Source of the DNA: Flavobacteriaceae bacterium
GTDB lineage: Bacteria; Bacteroidota; Bacteroidia; Flavobacteriales; Flavobacteriaceae
Assembly: GCA_027082925.1 (NCBI GenBank)
Contig: JALWTD010000004.1
Coordinates: 1-64,000, forward strand
Reading direction: 5' to 3'
DNA: 64,000 nt
The notes under the pieces are model-generated. The model saw only the letters and a program-made list of their open reading frames with translations, had not been told where the DNA came from and did not search any database. How positions within the stretch are numbered: the first letter of the stretch is position 1; every line of letters begins with the position of its first letter. Made by a program: the position numbers and the translations under genes. Shown here piece after piece: positions 1,989 through 59,342 of this stretch.

Positions 1989-2068
1989 TTAGATAAAATA
2001 GTAATTTTGATTACGCTTTGTTAGTTGTAGTATTTTATTTTAGTATATTCGAATCATTAAATTTTAAT

Positions 2069-2632
2069 ATGAAAATTGAGATTCAAGGGTTTCACGGTAC
2101 AAGTTATCAGAAGGCAAAAGAAATTATAACGACTGGATATAAATTGTCACTTGGTGATAGTGAGTGGTTGGGTGATGGAGTTTATTTTTTTATTAAAGGC
2201 TTGAGTAAAAAGCCGATAGAACAGGCTCAAAAGTGGGCAATTTCTCAATCATGGGACAATATCACAAAAAAGTTGAGATATAATAGCTTATCTATTTTAA
2301 AATCAGAGATTGTAGTAGATGAAGAAAATTTTTTAGATTTAACAGTAGATGAAGGAATAGAAGTTCTTGAATATATTATTGATAGACATTCAGATAAAAT
2401 ATCTAAGTTAAAAAAGAGGTTTAATCATATTGATGGTTTGGTAATTAATTTTGCTAGAAATGAAAATATTTTGCCTATTGAGGTTGCTAAAGGGAATTTT
2501 TATATTAAATTTACAAAAGAGAGAATGTCAAATTTTGATAGAAGGACTTCAAATTGTACAATATGTTCTGTATATTTGCCAGCTAAAAATATTAAGAGTA
2601 AGGAATTAGTTTTAACTAACGAGATTGGATAA
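2069..2632 (+). CDS. ADP-ribosyltransferase-like toxin of a CmdTAC-type toxin-antitoxin-chaperone system
   Basis: 187 residues from the ATG at 2069; the frame is open upstream to a TTG at 2018, but conservation begins at MKIEIQGFHGTS. The protein has an FHGTS motif (His9) and a WLGDGVYFF motif (Tyr39), the pattern of the His and Tyr motifs of ADP-ribosyltransferase-fold toxins of the DUF3990/CmdT kind. The third catalytic position is not obvious. The next two genes, a 73-residue protein and a SecB-like chaperone, are packed within a base of each other and give the toxin-antitoxin-chaperone order of CmdTAC, in which CmdT ADP-ribosylates mRNA after phage infection. A possible promoter box (TAATTTTG) lies at 2002-2009. 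Family membership is inferred from motifs and context. Confidence 0.7.
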   Translation: MKIEIQGFHGTSYQKAKEIITTGYKLSLGDSEWLGDGVYFFIKGLSKKPIEQAQKWAISQSWDNITKKLRYNSLSILKSEIVVDEENFLDLTVDEGIEVLEYIIDRHSDKISKLKKRFNHIDGLVINFARNENILPIEVAKGNFYIKFTKERMSNFDRRTSNCTICSVYLPAKNIKSKELVLTNEIG

Positions 2633-2633
2633 G

Positions 2634-2855
2634 ATGAAACTTAATAAAAAAATAAAGGAACGAATAGATAATTATTTTGATAGTATATCTGCCGAAGAAT
2701 TATATAAAATTTCGATCAAATATGGTTTTGTAGAAGATTTTGGCTTTGAAATTTCAAATGAACAATTGAATAATGTCAATGTAGATATTTATATATCAGG
2801 CACTGATCAGAGTTATGAATCTAATGACGTTAGTAATATTCCATTAGCAGCTTAA
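2634..2855 (+). CDS. Candidate antitoxin of the CmdTAC-like operon, with ssrA-like C-terminus
   Basis: 73 residues from ATG 2634, one base after the toxin stop; an in-frame TTG at 2625 would overlap the toxin. The N-terminal half is basic and helical, the C-terminal half acidic and probably flexible. The protein ends in Pro-Leu-Ala-Ala, close to the LAA end of the ssrA tag read by ClpXP. In known toxin-antitoxin-chaperone systems the antitoxin has an unstable C-terminal chaperone-addiction segment bound by a SecB-like protein; this tail would fit. I recognise no sequence family, so the role comes from size and position. Confidence 0.6.
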   Translation: MKLNKKIKERIDNYFDSISAEELYKISIKYGFVEDFGFEISNEQLNNVNVDIYISGTDQSYESNDVSNIPLAA

Positions 2856-2856
2856 A

Positions 2857-3240
2857 ATGAAAATACAACTACAAAATTGGAAAATACAAAGACTTAGCTT
2901 TGAACTCTTAGATGAAAATCAAAAGAGAGAAGAGAGTTCTTTTGGAATTAAAAAAGGTCAAATATTTCCAGAAGAAGATAAAAAGAGTTTTGTCATAGTT
3001 TTTGAAATTGATTTAAAGGACAAAGATTTTGATTTAAACTTTGAATCTGCTTTTGTATTTAGCCTTAATGATGAAATTACAGAGGAATTTAAGTTTTCGG
3101 ATTTCCCTAAAATTAATGCTCCTGCCATTGCTTTTCCATACTTAAGAGCTTATATTTCTAATTTAACCTTACAATCTGGTTTTGAACCAAGAATTTTACC
3201 TTCAATAAACTTTGTTAATTTAGCAAAGGAAGATAATTAG
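2857..3240 (+). CDS. SecB-like chaperone of the CmdTAC-like operon
   Basis: 127 residues. The C-terminal third (about residues 87-120) reads NAPAIAFPYLR...ISNLTLQSGF...LPSINF, the signature stretch of SecB (export chaperone, PF02556: NAPxxLFPYLRxxIS then GFPPLxLxPxNF). The N-terminal part has the alternating hydrophobic strands expected of the SecB fold. It starts one base after the antitoxin stop. Bacteroidota generally lack a classical secB next to export genes, so a SecB homologue behind a toxin and a tiny antitoxin is best read as the dedicated chaperone that guards the antitoxin. The stop codon abuts a degenerate transposase fragment. Confidence 0.8.
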   Translation: MKIQLQNWKIQRLSFELLDENQKREESSFGIKKGQIFPEEDKKSFVIVFEIDLKDKDFDLNFESAFVFSLNDEITEEFKFSDFPKINAPAIAFPYLRAYISNLTLQSGFEPRILPSINFVNLAKEDN

Positions 3241-3671: not shown

Positions 3672-6600
3672 ATGAGAAGAATTATCTTAATAGTATTTTT
3701 AATCTCAATGTACAATGTTCATTCTCAGAATTTAAACTATCAGAATGAACTTGAGCGCATGATTAAAATACCAAAAACACCTGAAGCAGAAGCTTTTGCT
3801 AAGTATGGTAATACAAGTGTGAATATGTATTCGGGGACACCTACTGTAAGTATCCCGATCTATACGATTTCAGGGCGGGAGTTGGATTTACCTATCAGTC
3901 TCACGTACGATGCTTCAGGAGTCAAGGTGTCTCAATTAGCTTCGCAAGTGGGTTTGAACTGGAATTTAAATGTAGGGGGTAGAGTTAGTAGAACAATTAA
4001 TGGTATGGTTGATGATTATTTCTACATTGCTCCTGCGTCGACATCATATACTTCGGTGTATAGTAATAGCGATGTTTATGTTGAAGGGGTACCTACAGGG
4101 AAAACATTAAGAGAGTTAATTCTAGAAAATTTGAACCCTCCACAAACGTTTCCTAGTCAATCTGCTGCTGAAAATTATTTTAAGTTTCTAAAAGAAATAA
4201 GTGATAATAAGCTTGATACTCAGCCGGATTATTTTAGTTTTAATGCTTTGGGTAATAATGATAATTTTGTGTATGTTATAGATAGTTTAGGAGGTAGCTT
4301 TCAATCTTTGGATAATCCTAGGACAAAGGTTTCGGCGACTTTTGATGCTACAAACACATATATTACAAGTTGGACAGTTGTAACAGAAGACGGAACTAAA
4401 TTTTATTTTAATCAAGCGGAAAAGACGAGTGTAGAAAATCTAAATGATATTGTTGGTACAGTGGTGCTTCAAGATTATTATTCTTCTTGGTTACTAACTA
4501 AAATAGAATCGCCTAACCTTAAGGATGTTTATGAGTTTACGTATTCAGATTTAGGGTTGTCAGAGACTCAGCCAAATTTATCTACCAAAGTTATTACCAA
4601 TGAGATGAGTAATCCAAACCCTGAATGGAATGGAAGTATTACATATCAGGACACGAATTATAAAATTTCACAATTAGCATTAACAAAAATTACTCACAAT
4701 AATAGAGTTGTTGTTGATTTGACGTTAAAGAGTAGATTTGATTTCAGTTTACCTTCTGCAATAAGTAAGATAGATATATACAAATATGACGGGTCGAGTG
4801 TTCTAAAAACCTTTTTGTTTAATCACAGTTATTTTGGGATAGTAAGTGGTGCAGATCCAAAGTTTCAATCTCCTTTTAGTATTAGATTAAAGCTAGATAG
4901 TATTACTATCAAGTCAGGGGTTAGCACAAGTTTATATTCATATAAGTTTGATTATTTTTCTCCTGAAAGTGTTCCTTCTAGAGATTCTTACGGGATTGAT
5001 TATTTAGGTCTGTATAATGGCAAAAGCAATAGTGTTTTATATCCCTCAGTTACAGTTAATGGAGTTTATTTTAGTGGGGCAGATAGATCTCCGGATTTTA
5101 ATAAAGCAATTATAGGAACCCTTAAAACATTAACATATCCTACAGGAGGTTATACGGAATTTACTTATGAGCCAAATAAAACAACGTATACTTTAAATGA
5201 TGTATCAGAAACAGTTCATGATGTAACGTATGGTAGTTTGAGTGTTTCTGGAGGTGTAGGAAATGGTGCCGATTGTGGTAATTGTTGCTTAGATCAATAC
5301 GGTTCTCCTCCAAATAACAATAGTGTTTTATTTAATATTACTGAGCCAGGAAATTACAGGATATCGTATACTAATACAGGTGGTGGTGATAGTGAGGCGT
5401 ATTTATTTTTAAGATCTTCTATACAAAATTTTACACCTGAGTTAAATTATAATCAAGTGATAGATCAGAGTAATTGTGCAGTATTGGTTCCTATGACTTG
5501 GACTAATTTTTCAGGCTATAATGATGATTCTGTTTACTTAACTCCGGGAACCTATCAAATTACATTAGTTAAGGGTTATTTTACTGGCGGGAGTGGAACT
5601 ATTAGCTTATCTGTTCATCGAGAAGAAACGATTTCAAGTACTATAGTTGGGACGGGTGAAGTTGCAAGAGCTGGGATACGTATAAAAAACATAAAAGATT
5701 ATAGAGATGTGGGAGTATTAAGTTTAGAAAAGGAATATCAGTATACAACAACTCTTAATGGGGCTAATTCGTCAGGAGAAATACTATTCCAACCTTCTTT
5801 TTACACAATTTCAAATTATCAGGTTTATATTGATCAGCCAGATTTGACCAAGGGGCAAGTTATGGGCTTAAATACTCTTACTCGAATGACAAGAGTAGGT
5901 TCTTGGAGCGGAGGGAGCAGGCCGCATATAGCGTATACAAAAGTTTATGAAATTCAAAAATCTGGAGGGGTAAACAATGGATATGTTGAATATTATTTTA
6001 ACACAGGATGGTATAATGGAATTTTTTCTACAGGGATTACTCCAAGTGTAAATCTCTATAGAAATGATTTTAGTACAGGAAAAAAATGGAAGTCAAATGT
6101 TTATAATAGAAGCGATGAGCTTTTAAAGACAGAGGTAACAGAGTACACTAATACTCGATATTTTGGAAACTCTACATTATACATTTATAATAATATTTAC
6201 AATAGTTATAGTTACGTCGATATTTATCCTGATGGCACAGGGAAATATCGCTACAAATATACTCCGGCAATTTTTATAGGATTTAACGGCCCTTATGCTC
6301 CAGGCTCATCGGTTAATGCGTCTCATCCAAATAGTTGTACCTATTGTTTACCTACACTTGATTATTCTTCTTTAGAAACGAGACAAACCTATGCTCAAGG
6401 TAATACGGGAGGTGTTTTAACTGAGGAAAGTACGATGTATTATAATGGTGTTGCTAGTACCCAGTCAACTATTAATACTTATGGAAACGTAGATATAGAC
6501 TATTTACTTAGAGAAACAGCAACAATAAATAGCAAAGGAGAATCATTAATAACCAAACAATACTATCCCAAAGACTTTCCAGCGATACCTTATACCACAT

Positions 6601-7199
6601 TAGTGTCTAATAATAGGTTAACAGAAGTGATTCAGACAGAAACTTTCAAGAAGACGGGTACAAATCCAGAGCAAAAACTGTTTACTAGGAAAAACGAGTA
6701 TATAGATACAAGTAAAGGGATTTTTCCCAACGAAATTTTAGCAGCCAAAGCAACAGATATTTTAGAAGGTAGGATTAGATATGGGTATAGTGATGGAAAT
6801 GTTGTAGAAGCATCACAACTTTCAGGAGATAATACAGAAACCCACACAAGTTATATTTGGGGGTACGATAAGTCTTTACCAATAGCTAAGTTAGAGAATA
6901 TTAAATACGCTGATATCCCTTCAAGTACTATACTAAATTTGCAAGCAGCAAGTGATAATGATGTCGATGAAGTTACAGAGCAAATACTTAGGACAGAACT
7001 AAATAACCTAAGATTACAGTTTCCTAATGTAAAAATCACCACATTTACTTTTGATCCCCATGTTGGTATTAAGAGTATGACAGACCCAAAGGGGCAGGTG
7101 TTTTACTACCATTATGATGAATTCAATAGATTAGAATTTGTTATAGATTCTGAAGGAAAAGTACTTAGTAAGAATCAATATAATTTTAGAACCAATTAA
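3672..7199 (+). CDS. Secreted RHS-repeat protein, first subunit of a two-gene RHS system
   Basis: 1175 residues from the ATG at 3672 (a TTG lies two codons upstream). The signal peptide ends near NVHSQ. The N-terminal ~150 residues (PTVSIPIYTISGRELDLPISLTYDA type) are the entry domain typical of large Bacteroidota RHS proteins and resemble the SpvB/TcB side of Tc toxins. A beta-rich insert with a Cys cluster (GADCGNCC) lies near residue 530. RHS/YD repeats occupy the end, which stops at a repeat with no toxin tip. The next gene starts 6 bases later and supplies the RHS-associated core and variable tip. It is therefore probably the structural half of a split RHS shell, exported across the inner membrane. 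Confidence 0.8.
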   Translation: MRRIILIVFLISMYNVHSQNLNYQNELERMIKIPKTPEAEAFAKYGNTSVNMYSGTPTVSIPIYTISGRELDLPISLTYDASGVKVSQLASQVGLNWNLNVGGRVSRTINGMVDDYFYIAPASTSYTSVYSNSDVYVEGVPTGKTLRELILENLNPPQTFPSQSAAENYFKFLKEISDNKLDTQPDYFSFNALGNNDNFVYVIDSLGGSFQSLDNPRTKVSATFDATNTYITSWTVVTEDGTKFYFNQAEKTSVENLNDIVGTVVLQDYYSSWLLTKIESPNLKDVYEFTYSDLGLSETQPNLSTKVITNEMSNPNPEWNGSITYQDTNYKISQLALTKITHNNRVVVDLTLKSRFDFSLPSAISKIDIYKYDGSSVLKTFLFNHSYFGIVSGADPKFQSPFSIRLKLDSITIKSGVSTSLYSYKFDYFSPESVPSRDSYGIDYLGLYNGKSNSVLYPSVTVNGVYFSGADRSPDFNKAIIGTLKTLTYPTGGYTEFTYEPNKTTYTLNDVSETVHDVTYGSLSVSGGVGNGADCGNCCLDQYGSPPNNNSVLFNITEPGNYRISYTNTGGGDSEAYLFLRSSIQNFTPELNYNQVIDQSNCAVLVPMTWTNFSGYNDDSVYLTPGTYQITLVKGYFTGGSGTISLSVHREETISSTIVGTGEVARAGIRIKNIKDYRDVGVLSLEKEYQYTTTLNGANSSGEILFQPSFYTISNYQVYIDQPDLTKGQVMGLNTLTRMTRVGSWSGGSRPHIAYTKVYEIQKSGGVNNGYVEYYFNTGWYNGIFSTGITPSVNLYRNDFSTGKKWKSNVYNRSDELLKTEVTEYTNTRYFGNSTLYIYNNIYNSYSYVDIYPDGTGKYRYKYTPAIFIGFNGPYAPGSSVNASHPNSCTYCLPTLDYSSLETRQTYAQGNTGGVLTEESTMYYNGVASTQSTINTYGNVDIDYLLRETATINSKGESLITKQYYPKDFPAIPYTTLVSNNRLTEVIQTETFKKTGTNPEQKLFTRKNEYIDTSKGIFPNEILAAKATDILEGRIRYGYSDGNVVEASQLSGDNTETHTSYIWGYDKSLPIAKLENIKYADIPSSTILNLQAASDNDVDEVTEQILRTELNNLRLQFPNVKITTFTFDPHVGIKSMTDPKGQVFYYHYDEFNRLEFVIDSEGKVLSKNQYNFRTN

Positions 7200-7205
7200 A
7201 TTGCT

Positions 7206-10200
7206 ATGAAAAAGATTATAATCATATTGTTAGTTTTGCCTTTAGTTTTATTAGCGCAGACTACACCTAGTCAAGATCAAAATTATATTTTAACAACCAC
7301 TTATCAGAAAGGTTATTTAAAAGGACAGGAGCAAAATGCGACCAATGAAGAACAGCTTATAACTATAGGGTATTTTGATGGTTTAGGAAGAGCTATTCAA
7401 AATATTGAAGTACGAGCTGGAGGTAATAAAGAAGATATTGTAACATTTATTGATTATGATGGATATGGGAGGCAAACCAAAGAATATTTACCATACGCTA
7501 CTTTAAGTACAGGAGGTTTGTTTAAGACAGATGCTTTAAATGTAACAGCTAGTTTTTATAATACCGATAAGTACGAAAACACATATAATCCATTTTCAGA
7601 AAAGCTTATTGAAGCCTCTCCATTAAATAGGGTATTAGAACAGGCGTCTCCAGGAAATTCTTGGAGTATATCAAGCGGACACACGATACGTTTTGACTAT
7701 CAAACCAATATTGGAAACCAGGGAGATTTTATAAAAAAACTGGGAGTTGGATTCACGGGAGGAGATACAACTTTACCGTACCTAACCACAGATGGATATT
7801 ATTCGGATGGGAGTTTAATGAAGACAGTTACAAAAGATGAAAATTGGACATCAGGGAATGATCACACAGTAGAAGAATATAAAAATAATCAGGGACAGGT
7901 AATTTTAAAGAGGAGTTATAATAACAATGAAATTTTTGACACCCAGTATGTATATGATGATTATGGGAATCTAACTTTTGTAATTCCACCCAAAGCAATG
8001 GATGTTATTTTTAATGAAACCATAACTACTCAGCCGGGAGTTTATGATACAACAACAACAACTTTTAGTTGGACAGACTTTGTTTCAGATCCTGGTGGTT
8101 CTGGGAGTGGTTCAGTTACAGCAGGAATTGTGCTTTTACCGGATGGGTCACACCAGTATAGTATTACGTTTAATTTAAGTTCATTGACAGGAAACACATT
8201 AAAAACAGGAAATGTAGTTGCTTTACCTAATGCAGAAAGTTTAGGAGACCAAGATTTGTTTAATATTAATATTATTCCTTATAAGTTTGCCCCAACAACA
8301 ACTTATGCCTATAAAATAATTAATGGCTATATTAATGTAGAGTTGGTATCAGGCTCTCCCGCAGCTCCTTATGGTATCACAAAACAAAATTCATTTGTTT
8401 TACCACCACCTGTTGGAGATACAACAGCTTCTTATACAGCTACTACAGGGAATGCTTTAGATGATTTATGTTACCAATACAAATACGATTACAGAAATAG
8501 ACTAATTGAAAAAAAAATACCGGGTAAAGGGCCAGAGTATATTGTTTATGACAGAATAGACAGGCCAATTTTAACACAAGATGCTAATCAAAGGTTGGCT
8601 AACCAATGGAGTTTTACTAAATATGATGCTTTAGGAAGAGTAGTATATACAGGAATTTACCATAACACTAATTTAACAGGTAGGTTGGTTATGCAAAATT
8701 TAGCCAGTACAGCAGAGCCTTTTCATTATGAAAATAAGACATCATCAGGGACAATGATTGATGGAGTTACAGTTTATTACACCAATAGAAGTTTTCCTAA
8801 TGATATAGGTGCTTTAACTGTATTAACAATTAATTATTACGATAATTATACTTTTGATAATGACGGTCTTGTTTTGCCGAGTTCTGTTGAAGGTCAATCA
8901 ATTGTAAACTATAATAATGCTACGGCTACTCAAATTTTAACCAATGGTTTGTCAACGGGGAGTAAGGTAAGGATTTTAGAAACTACTGATTGGATTACAA
9001 CAGTTATGGGTTATGATACCAAAGGTAGAACAATTTATACAGTAAGCAAGAATAATTATTTAGAAACGACGGATATTGTTATAAATAAACTGGATTTTGT
9101 AGGTAAAGTAGACAAAACAACTACGACACATACAAAAGGGACACAGGCAACTATAACCACGACAGATAATTTTATGTATGACCATGCAGGGAGGCTAATA
9201 AAACAAACACAGACACTGGCAGGACATACAGAAACAATTGTGGTAAATAATTATGATGAGCTAGGACAGTTACAAAGTAAGAAAGTGGGTAATACAGAAA
9301 CAGCCCCTTTACAAACAGTTGATTACACCTACAATATTCGAGGTTGGTTAAAACAGATTAACAATCCTACAAGTTTGGGGTCGGACTTATTTGGTTTTAA
9401 AATAGGTTACGATGAAGGTATTAATCCGTTGTATAATGGGAATATAAGCCAAACACAATGGAAAACAGCTAATACGGATAACAGTTTAAAGACATACGAT
9501 TACACCTACGATGCTTTAAACCGAATCACAAGCGGTATAGACAATACAAATGACCAACGTTATAGTTTAACCAATGTTTCTTATGATAAGAATGGGAATA
9601 TAACTCATTTACAAAGAAGAGGACATACAGATAATTTAAATCCCGTTTATTTTGATATTATGGACGATCTTAATTATTATTATAATGGAAATCAATTACA
9701 CTCGGTAACAGATAGTGCAGTATACAGTACAGGATTTGATGATGGAAATGCTTCAGATGCTATTTTTAACAACGGAAATGATGATTATATTTATGATGTA
9801 AATGGCAACTTATTGTCAGATGCTAATAAAGGCATAACAAATATTGCCTACAATCATTTAAATTTACCAACTCAAGTTACTTTTAATGATGGAAATATTA
9901 CTTATATTTACGACGCAACAGGAGTAAAACAGAAAAAGATAGTGAGTACAGGGGCAACAACGGAGTATGCAGGTAATTATGTTTATGAGAACGGCCAACT
10001 TCAGTTTTTTAACACGGCAGAAGGTTATGTAGAGCCAAGTGGAAGCACATATAGTTATGTCTATCAATATAAAGACCACTTAGGGAATATCAGACTAAGC
10101 TATAAAAACGTTAGTACTACAAGTATCCCTGTATTACAAATAGTAGAAGAAAATAACTATTATCCTTTTGGATTACGTCATAAAGGTTACAACAATGTTG

Positions 10201-11090
10201 TGACTTCTACCAATATAGCACAGAATTGGAAATACAACGGAAAAGAGTTAAATGAGAGTTTAGGTCTTAATTGGTACGACTATGGTGCTAGACGTTATGA
10301 CCCTGCAATTGGAAGGTGGTTCACTTTAGATAAGATGGCAGATGATGAAATGCAGATTGACAAAACGCCATATGCTTATAGTTGGAACTCACCAGTAACT
10401 TTAAACGACCCTGACGGTAACTGTCCTTGGTGTATTGGTGCGTTAGTTGGTGCTGCTACAGAATATTTAGTGCAAGCAGGAACAAACCTTGCGAAAGGTC
10501 AAGATTTAGGAGATGCGCTTTGGAATAATATTGACGGTGCAGATGTTTTAATAGCTGCAGGAGAGGGAGCTTTAACTGGAGGTGCTAGTGCAGTTAGAAG
10601 AGTTGCAGTTACAGTAACTGCCGAAGTTGTGAAATCTGCTATAGATGTAAATTTAGATGGTAGCACAGATGTAATAGGTACAGAAGGAAGTACTAAAACA
10701 GCATCAGGTGTTGTTAAAGAAGCTGGGGTTAATATTGTAGCGGGCGAAGCTCTAGGGAAAATAGATTTATCAGGAAAATTGGTAGATGCTTCTAGTGATG
10801 TAGCTGTGAAATCTGCTAAATCAAATGTGACTGCTAAAGCTAAAAATTTAGATAAAGCTAACAATATACGCAGAACAGGTAATGCTTCCGAAGCAGCAAG
10901 AGGTTCGAAGGCTAAAAATTCAAATGATGCTTTTAAAGATTTTAATAAAGCTAAACAAGCTCAATCTACTACAAAAGCGTTAAACTCGACTGTTGGTAAA
11001 GTGAATGACAATGTAGTTAAAACAACTGTAAATTCCGCAGAAGGTACAGTTTATAATACAATAAAGGATGACCTCCAAAAAGAAAAATAA
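7206..11090 (+). CDS. DUF6443-type RHS-repeat polymorphic toxin, second subunit, unknown toxin tip
   Basis: 1294 residues: signal peptide (LPLVLLAQ), an N-terminal DUF6443-like segment (YQKGY, then GYFDGLGRAIQ), a long RHS/YD-repeat body, and the RHS-associated core near residues 980-1075 (ARRYDPAIGRWFTLD, then SPVTLNDPDGN). After that comes a variable ~220-residue C-terminal domain: a Gly/Ala-rich possibly membrane-active stretch, then Lys/Ala/Asn-rich sequence (SKAKNSNDAFKDFNKAKQA) with no catalytic motif I can name. Bases 9903-10029 are identical to the start of the window, where a different tip is attached. It starts 6 bases after the first RHS gene and overlaps a small candidate immunity gene. 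Confidence 0.85.
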   Translation: MKKIIIILLVLPLVLLAQTTPSQDQNYILTTTYQKGYLKGQEQNATNEEQLITIGYFDGLGRAIQNIEVRAGGNKEDIVTFIDYDGYGRQTKEYLPYATLSTGGLFKTDALNVTASFYNTDKYENTYNPFSEKLIEASPLNRVLEQASPGNSWSISSGHTIRFDYQTNIGNQGDFIKKLGVGFTGGDTTLPYLTTDGYYSDGSLMKTVTKDENWTSGNDHTVEEYKNNQGQVILKRSYNNNEIFDTQYVYDDYGNLTFVIPPKAMDVIFNETITTQPGVYDTTTTTFSWTDFVSDPGGSGSGSVTAGIVLLPDGSHQYSITFNLSSLTGNTLKTGNVVALPNAESLGDQDLFNINIIPYKFAPTTTYAYKIINGYINVELVSGSPAAPYGITKQNSFVLPPPVGDTTASYTATTGNALDDLCYQYKYDYRNRLIEKKIPGKGPEYIVYDRIDRPILTQDANQRLANQWSFTKYDALGRVVYTGIYHNTNLTGRLVMQNLASTAEPFHYENKTSSGTMIDGVTVYYTNRSFPNDIGALTVLTINYYDNYTFDNDGLVLPSSVEGQSIVNYNNATATQILTNGLSTGSKVRILETTDWITTVMGYDTKGRTIYTVSKNNYLETTDIVINKLDFVGKVDKTTTTHTKGTQATITTTDNFMYDHAGRLIKQTQTLAGHTETIVVNNYDELGQLQSKKVGNTETAPLQTVDYTYNIRGWLKQINNPTSLGSDLFGFKIGYDEGINPLYNGNISQTQWKTANTDNSLKTYDYTYDALNRITSGIDNTNDQRYSLTNVSYDKNGNITHLQRRGHTDNLNPVYFDIMDDLNYYYNGNQLHSVTDSAVYSTGFDDGNASDAIFNNGNDDYIYDVNGNLLSDANKGITNIAYNHLNLPTQVTFNDGNITYIYDATGVKQKKIVSTGATTEYAGNYVYENGQLQFFNTAEGYVEPSGSTYSYVYQYKDHLGNIRLSYKNVSTTSIPVLQIVEENNYYPFGLRHKGYNNVVTSTNIAQNWKYNGKELNESLGLNWYDYGARRYDPAIGRWFTLDKMADDEMQIDKTPYAYSWNSPVTLNDPDGNCPWCIGALVGAATEYLVQAGTNLAKGQDLGDALWNNIDGADVLIAAGEGALTGGASAVRRVAVTVTAEVVKSAIDVNLDGSTDVIGTEGSTKTASGVVKEAGVNIVAGEALGKIDLSGKLVDASSDVAVKSAKSNVTAKAKNLDKANNIRRTGNASEAARGSKAKNSNDAFKDFNKAKQAQSTTKALNSTVGKVNDNVVKTTVNSAEGTVYNTIKDDLQKEK

Positions 11091-12045: not shown

Positions 12046-12071
12046 AACCACCTTTAACGAGGTGGTTTTTT
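12046..12071 (+). terminator. Rho-independent terminator after the second RHS unit
   Basis: Stem AACCACCT/AGGTGGTT with loop TTAACG and a T run; same core hairpin as at 1683-1712. In this copy the 264-bp repeat begins at its T run. Confidence 0.8.
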
Positions 12072-12334
12072 GGTAGTGGGTCAAATTAGTGGTTAGCTCA
12101 TTTATGAGAGTTACTAGTTTGGTTTTCAATCATAAATTAAACTATGAATACATAAAAATGGGAATACTTAGGTATGCTCACTTTCTTTTGAACTTGTTTT
12201 AGAGGCTTAGAAGAGGAATTTATAAACCTCGTGGGTTAAATTAGCGGGTAAAAAATAGTAATGGTAAACAAGGCTTAATGGTAGTAGGGTAAATTAAGAG
12301 GTAGTTAATAAGGAAATTCCTTAAATATTCTATT
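12071..12334. repeat. 264-bp direct repeat, copy 2 (left end of the intact IS1-family element)
   Basis: Matches 1725-1988 at a constant offset of 10,346 bases with a single mismatch. The three 21-nt motifs fall at 12076-12096, 12231-12251 and 12284-12304. Here the repeat runs straight into the transposase leader. No other gene is visible in 12072-12422. Confidence 0.85.
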
Positions 12335-13126
12335 GTAAATCATTAATAAAAAAGACAGGAAACAACCTAATTTCGAATCTATATATTAGTGTAATAGTCA
12401 TTATTTAATTTAAGAAATAGTTTTGAATTGTAATAAATGCGGTAGGGTATGTATAAAAAATGGATTTCAAAAAAATGGAAGACAGAGATATTATTGTAAA
12501 ATATGTGAGTTAAATCAACAAAAAGTATATGTTTACCAAGCGTATAAGAGACATATAAATCAATCAATATATACCCTATTAATAAATAGTTGTGGAGTTA
12601 GAGATATTTCTAGAGTATTAGAAATATCTAAAAAAACAGTAAGTACTAGAATAGTAAAAATAGCCCAAAGGATTAGGATCCCGATTTTTACTGAATACTC
12701 ACAAAGTTATGAAATGGATGAGCTTTTTGTTAAAAATAATGGAAAACGGTGTTGGATATCTTATGCTATCAATAGAAAAACAAAGCAAGTAATTTCTTTT
12801 GTAGTTGGATCCAAAAGTAGAGAAAATTTAGCCAAAGTAACGAATCAGGTTTTATTATTAAATCCCAAGAAAGTTTACACAGATAAACTAACTACTTATA
12901 AGACCCTAATTCCTAAAGAAATTCATGATAGTTGTCGCTATCAAACAAATAGAATAGAACGATTTAATCTCAATTTAAGAACACATTTAAAAAGATTAAA
13001 TAGGAAAACAATATGTTATAGTAAAAGTTTAAAAATGCTTGAATCTATTATTAAAATTTACTTTTGGGGGAGTTCTATAAATTTTGAATTTGTAAATAAC
13101 AGTAGCTAACCACTTGGATTATCCCA
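12076..13126 (+). mobile_element. IS1-family insertion sequence, probably complete
   Basis: One transposase gene framed by imperfect inverted ends. Left: GTGGGTCAAATTA then GTGGTTAGCT. Right, read on the minus strand: TGGGATAATCCA then AGTGGTTAGCT. They share the 10-mer GTGGTTAGCT and an outer TGGG. No clear target-site duplication is visible. A shorter element starting at the third internal motif (12284, about 840 bp, more usual for IS1) is also possible, so the left end is uncertain. Confidence 0.55.
12423..13109 (+). CDS. IS1-family transposase, single reading frame
   Basis: 228 residues from a TTG at 12423; an in-frame stop sits three codons upstream. The N-terminus has a zinc-ribbon (CNKC...CKIC), then a helix-turn-helix-like segment (residues 55-80), then the catalytic domain with DDE candidates Asp99 (YEMDEL), Asp154 (VYTDKL) and Glu179 (NRIERFN), spaced as in IS1 InsAB. 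Unlike classical IS1 there is no insA/insB frameshift, as in several bacterial and archaeal IS1 subgroups. The stop codon lies inside the right inverted repeat. Confidence 0.85.
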   Translation: MNCNKCGRVCIKNGFQKNGRQRYYCKICELNQQKVYVYQAYKRHINQSIYTLLINSCGVRDISRVLEISKKTVSTRIVKIAQRIRIPIFTEYSQSYEMDELFVKNNGKRCWISYAINRKTKQVISFVVGSKSRENLAKVTNQVLLLNPKKVYTDKLTTYKTLIPKEIHDSCRYQTNRIERFNLNLRTHLKRLNRKTICYSKSLKMLESIIKIYFWGSSINFEFVNNSS

Positions 13127-57436: not shown

Positions 57437-58096
57437 ATGGATTACGGAAAAGAATTCAAAAAATTTGCTACAAAACACCATGGAATTAACAGTATGCACT
57501 ACGATAAATTGGTGAGTAGCGTTACACCTTATATTATAGAAGAGCGTCAGTTAAATGTTGCTCAAATGGACGTGTTTTCACGTTTAATGATGGATCGAAT
57601 TATTTTTTTAGGAACAGCTATTGATGATTATGTAGCTAATATTATTCAAGCACAATTGTTGTTTTTAGAAAGTGTAGATAACTCTAAAGATATTTCTATT
57701 TACATTAATTCTCCAGGAGGAAGTGTGTATGCAGGTTTAGGAATGTACGACACAATGCAGTTTATTAAACCCGATGTAGCCACAATTTGTACAGGAATGG
57801 CAGCTTCTATGGGAGCAGTGCTTATGTGTGCCGGTGAAAAAGGAAAACGCTCTGCATTGCCACATTCTAGAATTATGATTCACCAACCTTTAGGAGGAGC
57901 TCAAGGACAAGCTAGTGATATTGAAATTACAGCTCGTGAAATACTCAAATTGAAAGATGAGTTATACCAAATAATCTCAAAACACTCAGGACAACCTATG
58001 GAAAAAGTAACCAAGGACTCTGACCGTGATTATTGGATGAAAGCTAGTGAAGCTAAAGAATACGGAATGATTGACGAAATTTTAATTAGAAAGTAA
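57437..58096 (+). CDS. clpP: ATP-dependent Clp protease proteolytic subunit
   Basis: 219 residues. Catalytic Ser124 ([10 protein letters not shown]) and His149 ([12 protein letters not shown]) are in place, with the [18 protein letters not shown] oxyanion strand. The mature N-terminus follows a ~40-residue leader. Forms the ClpP barrel that with ClpX degrades unstable proteins, including ssrA-tagged ones. A weak TATCTTTA box lies near 57398. ClpX follows 4 bases after its stop. Confidence 0.96.
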
Positions 58097-58100
58097 ACAC

Positions 58101-59342
58101 ATGGCAAAGGAAGAAGTTTTAGAATGCTCTTTTTGTGGTAGAAAAAAACCGGAAACAGATTTACTAATAGCCGGGTTAGATGCCCACATATGCGATAAAT
58201 GTATAGAACAAGCGCATGGAATTGTTATGGAAGAAATTGCAGAGCAAAATTCTTCTACGCTTACCTCAGAGCTAATTGTAAAAAAACCAAGAGAAATAAA
58301 AGAGTTTTTAGACCAATACATGATTGGGCAAACACAGGCAAAACGAGTAATGTCTGTTGCTGTTTACAATCATTATAAACGATTATTACAACCTCCTACA
58401 ACAGAAGAAGATGATATTGAAATTGAAAAGAGTAATATTATTTTAGTAGGAGAAACAGGTACAGGAAAAACATTAATAGCTCGTACCATTGCCAGAATGC
58501 TTAATGTTCCTTTTTGTATTGTAGATGCAACGGTTTTAACAGAAGCCGGTTATGTAGGAGAAGATGTAGAAACTATTTTAACACGTTTATTACAAGCCGC
58601 AGATTACGATGTGTCAAAAGCAGAAAGAGGAATTGTATTTATCGATGAAATTGATAAAATAGCTCGAAAATCAGACAACCCTTCTATTACTAGAGATGTT
58701 TCTGGAGAAGGCGTACAACAAGCTTTACTTAAATTATTAGAAGGTTCGGTAGTAAATGTACCGCCAAAAGGAGGTAGAAAACATCCCGACCAAAAATTTA
58801 TTGAGGTAAACACAAAAAATATTCTTTTTGTAGCAGGAGGAGCTTTTTCCGGTATAGATAAGATTATAGGAAAACGTTTAAACAGACAAGCTGTAGGTTA
58901 TGGAGCTTCAATTAAAGAAGATAGAATTGATGAAGGAAATATGTTGCAGTACATTATTCCAAAAGATTTAAAAGATTTTGGTTTAATTCCTGAGATTATA
59001 GGACGATTGCCTGTATTAACACACATGAATCCGTTAGATGCAAATACACTAAGAGCTATTTTAACAGAACCAAAAAACTCAATTATAAAACAATACCAAC
59101 GTTTATTTAAAATGGATGGTATCGATTTTTCTATAGATGAAAAAGCACTTATGTATATTGTTGATAAGGCAGTAGAATACAAACTTGGAGCTAGAGGCTT
59201 GCGTTCACTTTGCGAAGCAATTTTAACAGACGCTATGTTTGAATTGCCGGGCTCAGGAGAAACAGAACTTAGAATTACCAAAAAATATGCTCGAGACAAA
59301 ATAAACAAGTCAACACTTAAAAAATTAAAAGCAGTCTCGTAG
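58101..59342 (+). CDS. clpX: ATP-dependent Clp protease ATP-binding subunit ClpX
   Basis: 413 residues. N-terminal zinc-binding domain ([10 protein letters not shown]...[10 protein letters not shown]), Walker [16 protein letters not shown], Walker [12 protein letters not shown], the IGF-like loop as an ISFDE-free variant, sensor 2 [16 protein letters not shown]. It unfolds substrates, often by C-terminal LAA-type degrons, and feeds ClpP. Ends at a strong terminator. Confidence 0.96.

Follow-up and report, generated by a model that had tools for sequence, protein, structure and literature searches.

A CmdTAC-like toxin–antitoxin–chaperone operon in a Flavobacteriaceae bacterium and a toxin clade without the third triad residue

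Does a three-gene operon at the start of a Flavobacteriaceae contig belong with CmdTAC, the recently described anti-phage system of Escherichia coli ECOR22, and what becomes of that assignment when its toxin lacks one residue of the published catalytic triad? The operon lies in the window, by which we mean the whole stretch of DNA analysed (64,000 nucleotides; positions 1 to 64,000 of the forward strand of contig JALWTD010000004.1, assembly GCA_027082925.1), and it sits at the contig start in a 2.47-Mb genome. PD-T4-9 is the earlier name of CmdTAC, and profile models bearing it are used below. We consider it likely that the operon is a CmdTAC-type toxin–antitoxin–chaperone (TAC) module of a separate, mainly Bacteroidota branch, working as E. 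coli CmdTAC does. New here is a clade of toxins with invariant His and Tyr but without a third Glu, Asp or Gln. This reading would extend the mechanism to a coherent branch, whose toxin in this genome is missed by the PADLOC model. The three genes, with the evidence for each, are as follows.

2069..2632, + strand: T, a cmdT-like toxin of 187 amino acids (aa) with a predicted ADP-ribosyltransferase (ART) fold (AlphaFold, Foldseek/VIA, hhalign, phrog_14664)
2634..2855, + strand: A, a cmdA-like antitoxin of 73 aa (position between T and C; N-terminus common to relatives; AA ends)
2857..3240, + strand: C, a cmdC-like chaperone of the SecB family, 127 aa (PF02556; PD-T4-9_C)

The genes are packed as closely as the initial annotation had described, with both intergenic gaps 1 nt long; we start T at the ATG at 2069, the mechanical open reading frame (ORF), with the start used in that annotation, beginning at a TTG at 2018. 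The SecB signature reported for the third protein is borne out by profile searches. Briefly, C contains the motifs NAPAIAFPYLR and LPSINF, scores 35.6 bits with PF02556 SecB (E 1e-8), over the curated cut-off of 26, and matches PD-T4-9_C, PADLOC's model of the chaperone, at E 1.8e-36 and phrog_10298 at E 2.1e-21; it is the sole SecB match in its own genome at E up to 0.001. T carries both motifs noted initially as ART-like, FHGTS with His9 (2093–2095) and GVYFF with Tyr39 (2183–2185), and is predicted to adopt an ART fold of the diphtheria-toxin/PARP type. Its single-chain AlphaFold model (mean predicted local distance difference test score, pLDDT, 95.5; predicted template modelling score, pTM, 0.91) matches PARP, exotoxin A, NatT and MbcT in Foldseek and VIA, with PARP2 at the top Foldseek rank, and T matches phrog_14664 at E 4.1e-19. 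Searched alone, the T sequence found no PDB chain at E up to 10, and a WcaF-type acetyltransferase match in NCBIfam (E 0.022, far below its cut-off) was set aside as chance-level. The initial annotation had named a first gene outside the ART fold, or a third outside SecB, as grounds for abandoning its reading; the first falls inside that fold by prediction and the third inside SecB. For DUF3990, which it had offered as a family to search, Pfam gave no match at E up to 1 with T or any of its 21 relatives.

To place the operon among its relatives, a three-row toxin alignment was searched against genome contigs, yielding 36 loci, 21 of which (L024–L044) group with the window by similarity. The clade analysed here (n=22) comprises 19 of these loci, the window and viral contigs L003 and L010. 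Broken relatives were left out, namely L027 (antitoxin frame broken; T identical to that of L026), L039 (toxin and chaperone broken; its antitoxin was kept in antitoxin alignment A9) and L005 (toxin broken), as were L057 (toxin of 122 aa) and contigs or matches already counted (L011, L012, L016, L017, L060, L061 and L004, the last with match values equal to those of L003); L023, whose first gene is without the HGT start, entered the first alignments and not the tree. The 22 toxins group together as a single clade in the 46-toxin tree (support 100/99; 100% of 200 bootstrap trees), drawn from 16 Bacteroidota-labelled records, one Psychrobacter, one Fibrobacter, one Desulfonema-labelled bin, the two viral contigs and the window. 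The clade toxin profile aligns with CmdT-type toxins at an hhalign probability of 99.95 (E 6e-38), and PARP Pfam models match 9/22 clade toxins at E up to 1 (best 1.4e-4). The triplet is adjacent in 19/22 clade loci, window included, with an A–C gap of 335 nt in L037 and of -4 to 15 nt elsewhere, and PD-T4-9_C matches all 19 clade chaperones, window C among them. Viral contig L010 carries the same triplet at 52% (T), 43% (A) and 60% (C) identity to the window. Family matches of T and C together with this joint recurrence show that the T–A–C triplet is not a chance assembly.

Beyond the clade, the ORF lists of the other 15 loci held a SecB-like third gene in 9 and none in 6. A separate CmdT-like group (98/95) consists of six toxins from cyanobacteria, a planctomycete, Akkermansia, Rhizobium and an unplaced bacterium (L048, L049, L050, L055, L059 and L006). 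These have Gln as the third triad residue, and the ORFs behind them showed no SecB-like gene. The distribution around the window is sparse: T occurs in one of 100 relatives' genomes, its own, and of 395 genomes from the phylum the three-row toxin profile matched two, that genome and another in which the match was weak and partial (E 4.4e-4, residues 5–41). Scans of viral contigs with C and with the C alignment returned the same two contigs, and the T and C of L010 returned only L010's own contig. CmdTAC homologues have been described in diverse Gram-negative and Gram-positive bacteria (PMC11618068). The string 'Bacteroid' is absent from the main text of that paper, and CmdTAC in Bacteroidota was not found in the titles and abstracts of the literature searched.

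The second gene may link the operon to the host protease. It encodes 73 residues, as first annotated, and its C-terminus adds support that had gone unmentioned: A ends in LAA (2844–2852), a ClpXP-type end. Its N-terminus (MKLNKKIKERIDNYFDSISAEELY) is like that of close relatives and its tail is variable. CmdA, too, is described as more variable and as frequently missing from annotations; it has a C-terminal LAA, and its degradation proceeds through ClpP (PMC11618068). Among the complete clade triplets, 18/19 antitoxins end in AA and 1/19 in GA, compared with AA ends in 2/171 ORFs of at least 150 aa from the window and the clade loci; because the 19 antitoxins are related, this comparison is a description and not a probability. 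An hhalign comparison of two antitoxin alignments was discarded as evidence, since they had rows in common, window A included. Outside the operon, the window encodes both subunits of the host protease.

57437..58096, + strand: host clpP (TIGR00493, E 1.6e-88 at 57518–58090; 295.8 bits, slightly below the curated cut-off of 308.6)
58101..59342, + strand: host clpX (TIGR00382, E 2.8e-168 at 58107–59297, over the cut-off)

The host transfer-messenger RNA (tmRNA) tag is GEDNYALAA and thus ends in ALAA. Given host clpXP and this tag, the LAA end of A would be expected to act as a ClpXP signal, and we infer that ClpXP is the protease partner of the operon.

Comparison with E. coli CmdTAC, made through the PADLOC models and the published description and not residue by residue, shows the same order of toxin, antitoxin and SecB-like chaperone, a toxin of predicted ART fold with His and Tyr, a short and variable LAA-ended antitoxin, and a chaperone recognised by PD-T4-9_C. 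In these respects the CmdTAC homology proposed initially stands; it does not extend to recognition of T by PD-T4-9_A or to the third triad residue, Thr or Ile lying where CmdT has Glu, Asp or Gln. The initial suggestion that target and trigger may differ from those of CmdTAC is retained as a hypothesis. The toxins also form a separate clade, and three clade loci are without a chaperone gene. The same gene order recurs in a Vibrio phage (L018, annotated PD-T4-9 A/B/C), a Streptococcus satellite phage (L008) and a Psychrobacter plasmid (L021), all with a SecB-like third gene and with second genes ending in AA (L018 and L008) or VA (L021); unlike window T, to which they are 19 to 24% identical, their toxins have Gln at the third triad position. 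Searching E. coli genomes by blastn with the Vibrio phage operon gave no match. NatT, MbcT and ParT also have an ART-related fold within toxin–antitoxin pairs, and are two-gene systems with other antitoxins and activities. To our knowledge, the toxins of HigBAC and MqsRAC are not ARTs. As in those two systems, a SecB-like chaperone here would guard a labile antitoxin through its C-terminal tail (PMC6377645, PMC9519451), and the toxin and antitoxin sequences of MqsRAC are described as unrelated to those of CmdTAC (PMC9519451).

By analogy with E. coli CmdTAC, from which complex formation, ClpXP degradation, the phage trigger, the RNA target and abortive infection are all carried over, we propose the following working. 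In the resting cell, the SecB-like chaperone would hold the variable tail of the antitoxin and hide its LAA end, and the antitoxin would keep the ART-fold toxin folded and silent. Upon infection, a phage-made protein (a capsid protein in E. coli CmdTAC) would draw the chaperone away and ClpXP would then degrade the antitoxin. The freed toxin, using nicotinamide adenine dinucleotide (NAD+), would modify some component of the cell, RNA being the likeliest, so that translation and phage production would stop.

Several observations weigh against assigning the operon to CmdTAC. The PADLOC CmdT model PD-T4-9_A has no match in window T at E up to 1; in favour of the assignment, it does match 14/22 clade toxins at that threshold (best 2.7e-7), and two PD-T4-9_A models match 10/12 and 11/12 comparison toxins. 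The authors of CmdTAC used DefenseFinder's CmdT model (PMC11618068). Foldseek TM-scores for the T model are modest, at most 0.48 among the first rows; A has no convincing profile match, and no antitoxin model recognises it; and positions 158–169 are without Glu, Asp or Gln in 22/22 clade toxins. The neighbourhoods are mixed as well. In a survey of 124 flanking ORFs from 21 clade loci (the first 25 families out of 40 and out of 80, with matches unassigned to individual loci), the families among the matches listed include, on the supporting side, terminases, a portal protein, type II methyltransferases and MADS, besides endolysins, and also ordinary ones such as an ABC transporter, PhoH and ribonucleotide reductase; a defence-island setting is therefore not general. 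Because T is missed by the CmdT profile and the third triad residue is absent, we describe the operon as a CmdTAC-like sister branch and not as a strict member of CmdTAC, a label that does not lower the claim of CmdTAC-like working.

The missing residue was traced by comparing the clade with the remaining toxins in the tree, with the triad HY-[E,D,Q] reported for CmdT (PMC11618068) as reference. Eleven residues are invariant in 22/22 clade toxins (His9, Gly10, Thr11, Trp33, Gly35, Gly37, Tyr39, Phe40, Phe41, Tyr145 and Asn162), and the strand expected to bear the third triad residue reads N-[CSTAV]-[TSCR]-[IVF]. In the window, the codon of Asn162 is at 2552–2554 and those of Thr164 and Ile165 at 2558–2563. 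Acidic residues occur nearby, with Asp or Glu at position 157 in 4/22 toxins and at 170 in 8/22, and Glu151 in 18/22. In the 24 non-clade toxins of the tree, the third triad column holds Gln in 21, His in L047, Ile in L014 and Glu in L022; the Gln/His column was picked by eye in 22 non-clade rows and fell in the same column in 11/11 alignments. The clade residue in this column is Thr164 in 10/11 MAFFT runs and in hhalign, and Ile165 in 1/11. Predicted strands favour Ile165, since Gln158 of comparison toxin L053 (strand 156–161) and Ile165 of T (strand 163–168) are both third in their strands, although the L053 model is less sure near its strand (mean pLDDT 82.7; 73 for residues 151–160). A small ungapped profile with the Gln column masked, applied locally, preferred the Ile165 register in 14/22 toxins and others in 8/22, window T included; over the whole sequence its best match lay elsewhere in 18/22. 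Cys163 was dropped as a stand-in for the catalytic Gln, with alignments and strand data pointing to Thr164 or Ile165.

A triad His and Tyr without glutamate is also found in PARP10, PARP14 and PARP15, human mono-ARTs of the H-Y-hydrophobic type. These three top the PDB list of the clade profile at non-significant values (E at least 0.13, residues 6–45 only) and are at best distant homologues; the residue of T matching their third position may be Thr164 or Ile165. Human enzymes of this type are reported to work by substrate-assisted catalysis (PMC9189837), and PARP10 (H-Y-I) reportedly modifies uracil of single-stranded RNA (PMC13036486). Since such mono-ARTs are active, loss of the third residue alone is no argument against activity; catalysis nevertheless probably differs in detail from that of CmdT. 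Either the invariant Asn162, which directly precedes the predicted strand 163–168, may substitute for the missing residue, or the substrate itself may help, as in PARP10-type enzymes. It is conceivable, though we hold it only tentatively, that this mainly Bacteroidota branch works without the triad Glu or Gln in one of these two ways, and hence marks an RNA position or base other than CmdT's adenine N6 in GA, and that some members have shed the chaperone to become two-gene systems. Were the branch active without the third residue, it would provide naturally occurring enzymes with which to study how the triad determines what RNA ADP-ribosylation targets in immunity; the same question applies to human enzymes of the PARP10 type.

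The fold of T admits another activity. NatT and MbcT break down NAD+, and because they are as near to T in fold as PARP is, we keep the alternative of a TAC module whose ART-fold toxin would consume NAD+ in place of ADP-ribosylating RNA. We think this unlikely: the sequence and profile kinship of T is with CmdT-type toxins and PARP, PARP2 comes first in Foldseek, and VIA Z differences below 1 among the fold neighbours amount to ties. NatT ranks still higher for a comparison toxin that keeps Gln, so the likeness to NatT does not track the lost residue. The phage trigger could likewise be dispensed with, were the operon a conventional addiction module serving to stabilise a mobile element, with a chaperone that does no more than make the antitoxin dependent on it. 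CmdT- or CmdC-like genes on plasmids, phages and prophage-like contigs would suit such a module, as would the position beside RHS genes and an IS1-type transposase and the restriction of T to one genome in 100 relatives. Phage and plasmid carriage fits defence too, however, and the closest characterised system of the same gene order is a defence system (PMC11618068); we accordingly see no more than an outside chance for addiction.

That the toxin has lost catalysis and the system is decaying strikes us as very unlikely. The absence of the third triad residue and the broken relatives L027, L039 and L005 would fit decay, but a dead enzyme would hardly keep 11 residues invariant in 22/22 toxins, and the three window genes are intact. 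An effector/immunity cassette associated with RHS genes is harder still to credit, even with an RHS core end bearing a Peptidase_M91 tip upstream, RHS-like genes downstream and a 271-nt repeat common to the operon's upstream side and the next RHS region, for T begins at a start of its own and lacks an RHS core, and its relatives keep the three-gene arrangement next to genes of other types.

For the preferred reading, a CmdTAC-type TAC module, clade loci without a chaperone gene are a natural experiment on the chaperone's part in phage sensing. In L031 (3941–4740) and L033 (3995–4797), both Capnocytophaga, and in L038 (694–1415; Prevotellaceae), the ORFs behind toxin and antitoxin do not include a chaperone gene. 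SecB Pfam has no match in these three genomes, whose assemblies may be incomplete; the clade chaperone profile has none in those of L031 and L033, and one weak partial match in that of L038 (E 0.011, inside a 363-aa frame). Their antitoxins end in VIA, LAS and QIA, respectively. As the loci fall at two places inside the chaperone-bearing clade, this small sample of three suggests that the chaperone may have been lost twice.

The operon is flanked upstream by the end of an RHS gene and a lipoprotein-like gene (40–1672) and downstream by an RHS-like region (3672–11090). The upstream RHS gene closes with the end of its core (TIGR03696) and a Peptidase_M91 tip that includes HELFH. Next comes the lipoprotein-like gene, which was read by eye and may encode the immunity protein of that tip; a match of this gene to HslJ (E 0.11) was rejected as chance-level. 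A 271-nt direct repeat, 99% identical between its copies (1724–1994 and 12070–12340), follows hairpin-like sequence at the end of an RHS region in each case. The first copy lies shortly before the start of the cmdTAC-like operon, and the second is followed by an IS1-type transposase ORF (12423–13109). About 60–90 nt before the toxin start, an imperfect inverted repeat (1977–2008; 15-nt arms, 80% complementary) may be either an operator or a chance feature of AT-rich DNA.
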